Of a stretch of DNA of 64,000 nt, positions 54,584 through 57,273 are shown piece by piece. A program made the translations under genes and the position numbers. The DNA is from Prochlorococcus marinus XMU1404 (GTDB lineage Bacteria; Cyanobacteriota; Cyanobacteriia; PCC-6307; Cyanobiaceae): positions 310,001-374,000 of the forward strand of contig NZ_JAAORE010000003.1 of the NCBI RefSeq assembly GCF_017696175.1, written 5' to 3'. Each line of letters begins with the position of its first letter. The stretch's first letter is position 1. The notes under the pieces are model-generated. The model was not told where the DNA came from, searched no databases, and saw nothing but the letters and a program-made list of their open reading frames with translations.

Positions 54584-56140
54584 ATGATTAGTAAAATTTT
54601 AAAATTTAAATATCTTTTTAAACTATTTATTTTTATTCCTCTTATATTTTATTTTGGCAAACGAAGTTATATTGCTTTTGATGAAGGATTTTATGCATTA
54701 CAAGCCAGATGGATACTTGATAAAGGTAATTGGACAATTCCTATGTGGTGGGACGAGTATGTTTTAGATAGAACTATTGGACTACAGTTTTTAATTGCAA
54801 AGTCACAAGATATCTTTGGAAGAAATATGTTTTCCGCCTATCTGCCCACAACAGCTGCTGCAGTATTAATGCTATTTATAACTTATAAATTACATGAAGA
54901 ATTTTTTAATAAAAAATATGCAATTATTTCTCCACTAATACTTTCTACTACATATCTATGGTTTGATTACTCACATTTAGCAACTCAAGATATCATTTAT
55001 TCATGTTTAGTCACTATTGGAGTATTTTCTTTAGTCAAAATAAAAAGCGAGAAAAACCAATTCTATATTCTACTTTTTGGAATTTGGATTGGTTTATCTT
55101 TTATGATGAAAACTTTTCTAGTATTAGTGCCTTTATTATCACTCCTACCATATTTATATATCAAAAAAAATCTTTTATTCAGTAAATTGTTTTGGGTTGG
55201 ACTGCTCATTGGATTTATTCCATATTTATTTTGGTCATTCTCTATTAACCCTTTTTTAGAAAAAAATATTATTTTTTACTTAGCTGATAAGTTTAATATT
55301 CTCTCTAATAAAAATACTTTTACAAATCCTATCTATTATTATTTTTGGAATATTCCTGCAACATTCTTACCATGGAGTATTTTTGGAATTATTGGCACTA
55401 TATGCAACATTTATGGAAGTAAAGAAAATAAGTATATACTTAGCTTTTTCCCCATAATATTAATAACTATTCAAAGTATTTTTTCTACAAAAACTCCATA
55501 TTATAATCTACAAATCTCATCTATTTTGACATTAAATACTTATGTAGGCATAAGATATCTCTTCAATTCTAGAAGATATAAAGGAATTTTTATATTTTTC
55601 ACGTCAAAAATAATTCCATTATTTATAGTCGCTTCCTTATTCACATATTATTTTTTCTTTAGGAACATTAGCAACTTTAATTTTAAGGAAAATACATTTC
55701 TAATGATTGGATTATTTTTTTTCGGACTATCTTGGTCATTGATAAAACATAAAAACTCATTTAAAGAAATATTAATAACACTTATAATCGGGCCTTACTT
55801 ATTGACTTCATTTCTCTTGCAATCAGGATTATTTACCGATAGGTCAAGAGAACTTAGAGAAAAAATGGAATACGTTTCATCTTTAGATATAGTAAAAAAT
55901 CAACCGATAAAAGTTGATAAAAAAGGAATAGACAATTCTCAATCTCAATCAAAAATCATTAGGATTTCATTGTTAACACCTAAATTAAGCGAAGGGATAG
56001 ATAGTTTAGATAAATTGAATAAATCAGAGTTAGCATGGACGACTAAATATGAAGAATTAAAAAACAATAATTATTCTTACGAAGTTATATATGAAAATGA
56101 TATCTTAAACCCATGGAAATTAATATTAAAAAATAAATAA
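54584..56140 (+). CDS. GT39/ArnT-like membrane glycosyltransferase
   Basis: 518-residue polytopic protein of the dolichyl/undecaprenyl-phosphate sugar glycosyltransferase superfamily. The first periplasmic loop carries the catalytic DE of IAFDEGFYALQARWI (about 31-45) and WWDEYVLDRTIGLQFL. Roughly ten membrane helices follow, with a final soluble domain (about 430-518). Members transfer sugar from a polyprenol carrier to lipid A, protein or glycan; the acceptor is unknown. It starts 23 nt after the tRNA and lies 41 nt before a GT2 gene on the same strand. Confidence 0.82.
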   Translation: MISKILKFKYLFKLFIFIPLIFYFGKRSYIAFDEGFYALQARWILDKGNWTIPMWWDEYVLDRTIGLQFLIAKSQDIFGRNMFSAYLPTTAAAVLMLFITYKLHEEFFNKKYAIISPLILSTTYLWFDYSHLATQDIIYSCLVTIGVFSLVKIKSEKNQFYILLFGIWIGLSFMMKTFLVLVPLLSLLPYLYIKKNLLFSKLFWVGLLIGFIPYLFWSFSINPFLEKNIIFYLADKFNILSNKNTFTNPIYYYFWNIPATFLPWSIFGIIGTICNIYGSKENKYILSFFPIILITIQSIFSTKTPYYNLQISSILTLNTYVGIRYLFNSRRYKGIFIFFTSKIIPLFIVASLFTYYFFFRNISNFNFKENTFLMIGLFFFGLSWSLIKHKNSFKEILITLIIGPYLLTSFLLQSGLFTDRSRELREKMEYVSSLDIVKNQPIKVDKKGIDNSQSQSKIIRISLLTPKLSEGIDSLDKLNKSELAWTTKYEELKNNNYSYEVIYENDILNPWKLILKNK

Positions 56141-56181
56141 CCTGCATCCCCTAAAGTGTAGTCACCAAATTGTATGAAGTA

Positions 56182-57273
56182 ATGACATCAGTAAATTCTT
56201 GGAATTTAACGAATAACAAACTTCATCAATTATTCAAAAATAATGACGAATTCATTTCAATTAAAGTTCGGGGTAATACTTGGGAACCAATAACTAGATG
56301 GTTAAAATTAGATTCGAGAATTTTTAGAGAAACTACTAGTAAAGCGAGGATAACCTTATGCGATATTGAATCTCTTGCAGAAATTTATAACTACAGATCC
56401 ATTAGATGGAAAGCAAAAAAATTAACTCCTTTGCCAACTAAAATAATTCCACAATCTTTTAAAAATATTTTTCGTAAACTACCAATCATAAAGCAACTTG
56501 CCTATGAAATAGAAATAGTTTTTTATAGATATAATGAAAACAACTCCAACCATTTAATATCCATAGTAATACCGGCAAGAAATGAGGCTGGGAATAAAGA
56601 ACTTTTAATAAACGCTTTAAATAAATTCAAAAAAATACCCAATAAATTAGAAATTATATTTGTTGAAGGGAATAGCAAAGATAATACGTTTAAAATTCTG
56701 GAAGAGTTAAAAGAAAGTTACTCAAATTGCTTCAAGATATCTCTTTTAAAACAAACTTCCAAAGGCAAGAAAAATGCTGTTGTTGAAGGATTTAATATTT
56801 CATCAGGTAAAACTCTCGCAATAATTGATAGTGATTTTACTGTAGATATTGATGATAGTATTTCAGCAATTATGGAATCAACCAAAAATGAAAATATTTT
56901 AATTAATTGTTCCCGTACAACTTTTCCGATGGAAAAAGATGCAATGAGATGGGCTAACTATATAGGAAATAGACTTTTTGCAATATTTTTATCGATTCTC
57001 ATAAATAAGCCAGTATCTGATTCACTTTGTGGGACAAAAGTTTTTTCAAGGAAATTCTTTAAACTTATGAAAAAAAATGGTAGTTGGGATTCTAAATCTG
57101 ACCCATTTGGAGACTTCACAATAATATTTGAAGCAGCAAATAATAATATCAATATACTTAATTATCCTGTTAGATATTATGCCAGAAAATCTGGGGCCCC
57201 AAATATATCAAGATGGGTTGATGGTTTAAAACTTCTCAAAGTATGCTGGATTTATATGATTTCTGATATATGA
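56182..57273 (+). CDS. GT2-family glycosyltransferase with methyltransferase-like N-terminal tail
   Basis: 363-residue protein. The GT2 (GT-A) domain runs from about residue 125 (SIVIPARNEAG, then FVEGNSKDNT as nucleotide-binding DxD-side motif and DSDFTVD). The last part has DSLCGTKVFSR and PFGDFTII, typical of dolichyl-phosphate sugar synthases. About 110 residues before it resemble the C-terminal tail of a SAM methyltransferase (see findings). I take ATG 56182; TTG 56170 is four codons earlier in frame. It probably makes polyprenyl-phosphate sugar for the upstream GT39 enzyme, by analogy only. Confidence 0.8.
   Translation: MTSVNSWNLTNNKLHQLFKNNDEFISIKVRGNTWEPITRWLKLDSRIFRETTSKARITLCDIESLAEIYNYRSIRWKAKKLTPLPTKIIPQSFKNIFRKLPIIKQLAYEIEIVFYRYNENNSNHLISIVIPARNEAGNKELLINALNKFKKIPNKLEIIFVEGNSKDNTFKILEELKESYSNCFKISLLKQTSKGKKNAVVEGFNISSGKTLAIIDSDFTVDIDDSISAIMESTKNENILINCSRTTFPMEKDAMRWANYIGNRLFAIFLSILINKPVSDSLCGTKVFSRKFFKLMKKNGSWDSKSDPFGDFTIIFEAANNNINILNYPVRYYARKSGAPNISRWVDGLKLLKVCWIYMISDI

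Follow-up and report, generated by a model that had tools for sequence, protein, structure and literature searches.

How does an enzyme come to begin with what looks like the end of another enzyme? The question is raised by an open reading frame on the forward strand of the window (the whole stretch of 64,000 nucleotides analysed here, 32.5% G+C, from a genome of 1,668,840 bases in three contigs whose size, base composition and gene content suggest a Prochlorococcus-type cyanobacterium), which runs from position 56182 to 57273 and encodes 363 residues from its ATG: an N-terminal segment of about 117 residues, followed by a glycosyltransferase family 2 (GT2) domain. The listed frame extends further 5', to a TTG at 56170; the ATG at 56182 was chosen as the start because relatives have an ATG at the matching place. 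The sequence-only reading had taken the segment for the decayed C-terminal third of a SAM methyltransferase (MT) of the type fused to GT2 domains, and the motifs on which it relied (GNTWEPITRWLKL, ITLCDIESLAEIYNYRS, LPTKIIP and LPIIKQLAYEI) are all found in the translation. The features referred to below are as follows.

54584..56140, forward strand: ArnT-like GT-C glycosyltransferase gene (PMT_2; PMT below), the likely partner; PF13231, E 7.3e-19; NF009784, E 4e-13, which is below the NF009784 cut-off; directly 5' of the GT2 gene in 59/62 genus genomes with an unbroken GT2
56141..56181, forward strand: 41-nt gap between the PMT and GT2 genes, the expected place of the missing MT half; in locus L067, from a related genus, PMT stop and MT-GT2 ATG are 35 nt apart
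56182..56532, forward strand: half-methyltransferase segment, residues 1-117; AF2 model, with the same element order in a full-length relative; profile match over residues 13-113
56281..56283, forward strand: Trp34 (of WEP), invariant in 78/78 full-length fusions (from the best 80 listed) and 32/32 truncated genus sequences
56428..56430, forward strand: Pro83, invariant in the same 78/78 fusions (from the best 80 listed) and 32/32 truncated genus sequences
56533..56556, forward strand: variable linker between half-MT and GT2, residues 118-125; the highest median dN/dS covers it
56557..57273, forward strand: GT2 catalytic domain of the polyprenyl-phosphate glycosyl synthase type, residues 126-363 plus stop, DxD at 216-218; PF00535, E 2.6e-18, and VIA matches

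A radical SAM gene (NF045585) lies 3' of the frame. With a probability of about 0.72, we explain the protein as a lipid-sugar GT2 that serves the ArnT-like partner, descends from an MT-GT2 fusion, has lost the SAM half of its methyltransferase and keeps the other half, fixed, as a non-catalytic part.

Half of a methyltransferase

Among the named genomes, at least 590 candidate stretches were obtained, of which at least 503 encode relatives. The best 80 of these cover almost the whole fusion and come from Bacteroidetes, Verrucomicrobia, Nitrospirae, Planctomycetota and other groups; removal of two split matches (L090 and L097) left 78. The window itself (L001), a broken gene (L027, in genome G026) and duplicates (L028-L030) were left out of the full-length alignment. 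SAM motif I is present in 78/78 of the fusions examined from the best 80, in 77 by regular expression and in L145, which has a variant with His, by eye. A methyltransferase profile was built from 56 of the 78, the other 22 being omitted because the expression for the GT2 start missed them. It scores 24.5 bits against the N-terminus of the 363-residue protein and a median of 23.5 bits against 32 sequences of the genus. The highest score among 2000 composition shuffles is 9.4 bits, and among 243 real 125-residue pieces of the window's reading frames it is 8.6 bits, from a piece that has the SAM glycine motif itself. A second profile, from 30 full-length relatives, gave 12.5 bits against 7.6 for the best shuffle.

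In the alignment, residue 1 falls just past strand 4 of the methyltransferase, and the protein is collinear from there with the full-length MT-GT2 fusions; the segment corresponds to about residues 106-220 of a 220-residue domain. In other words, residues 1-117 are the C-terminal half of the class I SAM methyltransferase from a widespread MT-GT2 fusion. The proposed C-terminal methyltransferase origin is thus borne out by profile, alignment and AF2 models, while its extent has to be revised from a third to a half, so that part of the Rossmann fold remains. The form found in this genus lacks the first ~105 residues, that is, strands 1-4 with SAM motif I, and is cut at the boundary between strand 4 and helix D; the seven-stranded fold is reduced to the counterparts of strands 5, 6 and 7. 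A Pfam search with residues 5-126 alone returned no family at E up to 1.

The AF2 models agree with this assignment. They have mean pLDDT values of 85 for the 363-residue protein and 92 for the full-length relative L080, and the predicted order of elements is identical in both: helix D (residues 7-19 of the window's protein), strand 5 (24-30), an extra helix (35-42), helix E (59-68), strand 6 (71-80), helices (91-106), strand 7 (109-116) and then the GT2 domain. Secondary-structure states are equal at 95/114 aligned tail positions. The tail is modelled less confidently than the GT2 domain, with ten-residue pLDDT means of 56-90. In L080, the MT part resembles class I methyltransferases (1vlm, Z 21.8, 196 aligned, rmsd 2.8) and the GT2 part resembles DPMS (Z 25.5). 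No methyltransferase is named among the top 50 VIA rows for the 363-residue model, because GT2-type matches fill the list, and the Foldseek matches are likewise of GT2 type; these lists do not probe the tail, and its fold is assigned from the sequence profile and the model of the full-length relative.

It could be objected that residues 1-117 are an unrelated N-terminal domain which merely resembles an MT tail. Profile-profile comparison by hhalign was weak on the shallow alignments (probability 8.3, E 0.0041), and residues 30-112 have a mean identity of only 18.5% to the full-length tails. However, we hold an unrelated origin to be extremely improbable, given the 24.5 bits against a maximum of 9.4 in 2000 shuffles, the collinearity of a segment that adjoins the same GT2 domain, and a secondary structure that agrees with the full-length methyltransferase.

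The missing half was also sought elsewhere. As the sequence-only reading had noted, the SAM glycine motif and the Rossmann core are absent and do not lie upstream: the PMT gene ends at 56140, and 41 nt are too few for the missing part. In the rest of the window's genome, six matches to the missing half lie in frames of 219-554 aa, and none is a lone half of ~105 aa. One might still imagine a split enzyme, in which the SAM half is supplied in trans and methyltransferase activity persists, as methyltransferases of the same genome match the missing half with E values down to 1e-7. But the open frames that hold the four matches below E 1e-3 are 245-311 aa long, as long as complete methyltransferases, one of them is UbiE/MenG by NCBIfam, and conserved residues of the tail are substituted, so that there is scarcely any room for such an arrangement.

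Distribution of the truncated and full-length forms

In the window's genus (g1), an unbroken copy is present in 62/101 genomes, and all of its frames have 363-378 aa. In the family outside g1, 28 matches were found in the 201 genomes searched, all in frames of at least 462 aa. A class-wide sample gave a match in 100/291 genomes. The 11 in g1 are all short; of the 89 outside it, 85 have a frame of at least 456 aa. The four short cases outside g1, considered as possible further truncated lineages, are contig ends (G498 and G543, where the contig end hides the MT part) or frame breaks (G399 and G514, with the MT part in the neighbouring frame); G516 has a further short match, likewise at a contig end. 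Among the cyanobacteria sampled, the truncated form occurs only in the window's genus.

Broken or remnant copies are seen within g1 in G026, G035, G280, G296 and G318, and G262 has a relict second copy. GT2 genes devoid of the tail were sought in g1 and none was found, the partial copies being broken genes or contig ends; the matches in G287 and G308, for example, begin inside the GT2 domain at contig ends. Two deletion remnants deserve mention: in G280 (L168, 453-975), the start of the PMT gene runs into the end of the GT2 gene, and in G298 (L169, 4324-4584), the PMT start alone is left.

A conserved remnant, probably remodelled and then fixed

Is the segment decaying, as was first proposed? 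Median pairwise dN/dS among the 32 genus sequences (444 to 476 of 496 pairs, after removal of pairs with saturated or near-zero dS) is 0.163 for residues 1-29, 0.085 for residues 30-112, 0.296 for the linker (residues 113-127, the highest value) and 0.059 for the GT2 domain. The half-MT segment is under strong purifying selection, near that on the GT2 domain, and all 62 unbroken copies in the genus align from query residue 1 or 2. The description of the tail as decayed is therefore not sustained.

All 32/32 genus sequences have other residues at five positions where the fusions typically have Asp (6), Thr (23), Trp (56), Asn (94) or Ala (114), all five conserved in the fusions; W34, D61 and P83 are retained in 32/32. 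We read these substitutions and retentions as a remodelling that was followed by fixation. The mean net charge of the tail is +11.7 in g1, +2.9 in eight sequences from the related genera g27 and g34, and +4.0 in the remaining fusions.

A functionless relic on its way to being lost would account for the disappearance of several fusion-conserved residues and for the low identity to the full-length tails. Nevertheless, such a relic would hardly be subject to selection near the GT2 level or be present in 62/62 unbroken copies; it is also retained in G262, where the cassette sits at another locus, and real decay in this genus strikes the whole gene. We consider the relic very improbable, and prefer the remodelled and fixed half-domain.

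The likely PMT partner and the flippase-like gene

The PMT gene lies less than 200 nt 5' of the GT2 gene in all but three of the 62 g1 genomes with an unbroken GT2. In one exception, G006, the match begins at base 117 of its contig; the other two, G033 and G300, have only distant PMTs elsewhere (E up to 1e-20). The co-occurrence of PMT and GT2 gives a Fisher p of 1.8e-17, an inflated value because neighbouring genes vanish together in incomplete genomes.

In related genera, the gene order is PMT, MT-GT2 and a TIGR00374 flippase-like gene. This module is common in the family outside g1 (L067, 6432-10399; L068-L070; 28 family genomes), where TIGR00374 lies 3' of MT-GT2 within 200 nt in 24/28 genomes and within 2 kb in 26/28; a function for it was not found in our literature search. 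In g1, a TIGR00374 match is present in 6/101 genomes, five of them above the cut-off and none on the GT2 contig, and one of these genomes (G313) has no GT2 match. Glycosylation systems of this kind would be expected to have a lipid-sugar flippase. A search of the window's genome for two families, GtrA (PF04138) and TIGR00374, found neither, a result that counts against the explanation preferred here.

Several rearrangements of the cassette were observed. G262 (L166, 5549-8704; L167, 5621-6256) has a relict GT2 with many stops at the usual place, 5' of the radical SAM gene, and an intact PMT-GT2 pair elsewhere with a convergent GtrA gene adjoining, as if the cassette had moved or been regained. 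In G154 and G176, the GT2 gene is intact and the best PMT match is 43-44% identical at another locus, with a PMT remnant adjoining the GT2 gene in G154; the PMT partner may have been swapped in these genomes. In G300 (L170), the end of infB, the end of the PMT gene and the GT2 gene occur twice on one contig in opposite orientation, one GT2 copy matching residues 1-90 only, which reflects either a genuine inverted repeat or an error of assembly.

In-place truncation or transfer

Two histories fit the truncated gene: a burst of change after truncation in place, or replacement by transfer, in which a GT2 that already lacked the MT half was acquired from an unsampled lineage and settled next to the PMT gene, either alongside the resident MT-GT2 or in its place. 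The GT2 data lean towards transfer. The stem that leads to the g1 sequences has a length of about 4.8 changes per column; AU tests reject the grouping of g1 with g27/g34 (p 0.019) and with the family (p 0.014), and do not reject a grouping with all cyanobacteria (p 0.335); and the best E outside g1 is found in other cyanobacterial families (2.8e-56, against 9.3e-51 in its own family). On the contrary, the PMT of the same cassette groups in g1 with those of g27 and g34 against other genera with support of 100/100; under midpoint rooting, g1 is nested among g27/g34 with weaker support (89/88 and 91/87) and long branches flagged. The gene order is equal and the spacing near-equal (41 versus 35 nt), no truncated donor is seen among the 89 genomes with a match outside g1, of which two have the match cut by a contig end, and long branches distort tests of the AU type. 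Transfer is thus a serious alternative, to which we nonetheless give somewhat less than even odds; on the grounds of gene order, spacing and the PMT tree, we slightly prefer truncation in place.

A proposed role for the halved enzyme

D216 and D218 of the DxD motif are invariant in 79 alignment rows, and the GT2 domain is 26-34% identical to those of the 78 fusions from the best 80 listed. In VIA, the GT2 part of the predicted model matches DPMS (5mlz, Z 24.4, 227 aligned, rmsd 2.4), ArnC (9bhe, Z 23.8) and GtrB (9nyd, Z 20.6), enzymes that load polyprenyl phosphates. This DPMS/ArnC/GtrB-like fold, with an ArnT-like gene 41 nt 5', points to synthesis of a polyprenyl-phosphate-sugar for that neighbour. 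Most likely, the GT2 would attach a sugar to polyprenyl phosphate on the inner side of the membrane, and the ArnT-like GT-C enzyme would use the lipid-linked sugar outside it.

The ancestor would have been a bifunctional MT-GT2 fusion. In the window's genus, its first ~105 residues would have been lost up to the strand-4/helix-D boundary, and methylation should have ended with the SAM half. The remaining half (helix D, strand 5, helix E and strands 6-7) would then have been remodelled and fixed. Now probably non-catalytic, it would most likely support the GT2 fold as a scaffold or dock the enzyme to the membrane or to its partner, a role that the surplus positive charge of the tail fits; its retention as a putative docking domain, raised from the outset, is plausible.

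A much broader picture may be sketched, which we regard as speculative and rather unlikely as a whole: a catalytic domain was halved at a secondary-structure boundary and its half-Rossmann sheet rebuilt as a positively charged adaptor that the partner enzyme needs, alongside the burst of change in the GT2 and the loss of the flippase-like gene, and in this way an abundant marine lineage came to have a two-gene glycosylation module without methylation in place of a three-gene module that methylates.

The locus offers a clean natural case of domain halving, in which full-length fusions stand beside a single lineage where the half-domain is fixed, and the broken copies serve as controls. It opens a test of whether a GT2 needs the fold of its neighbouring domain rather than its chemistry, and it suggests that surface glycosylation in this lineage proceeds without a methylation step that its relatives may have.

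Comparison with known systems

With DPMS, ArnC and GtrB, the 363-residue protein shares the GT2 fold over about 220 residues (Z 20.6-24.4) and the DxD motif; it differs from them in its N-terminal half-MT and in having no clear transmembrane segment by hydropathy (maximum KD19 1.47).

Three-component extracytoplasmic glycosylation, as set out in PMC11127046, uses a synthase, a flippase and a GT-C enzyme, with the Gtr systems and Citrobacter O1/O2 as examples. The likeness is a synthase-type GT2 adjoining a GT-C enzyme; the difference is that the gene pair here has no flippase gene, GtrA and TIGR00374 not being found in the genome. From gene order and the distribution of the flippase-like gene, the g1 module would be akin to such a three-component system, minus the methylating half and the usual flippase-like gene.

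Also among the closest known systems is the MT-GT2 fusion itself, a class I SAM methyltransferase joined to a DPMS/AglJ-like GT2, which occurs in cyanobacteria, Bacteroidota, Verrucomicrobiota and other groups; a literature search at title and abstract level returned no description of this fusion, its function or its truncation. The window's protein lacks strands 1-4 and the SAM motif, has a remodelled, cationic tail and is without the downstream TIGR00374 flippase-like gene, whereas the GT2 domain, the C-terminal half of the methyltransferase, the invariant WEP Trp and Pro, and the PMT neighbour are common to both.
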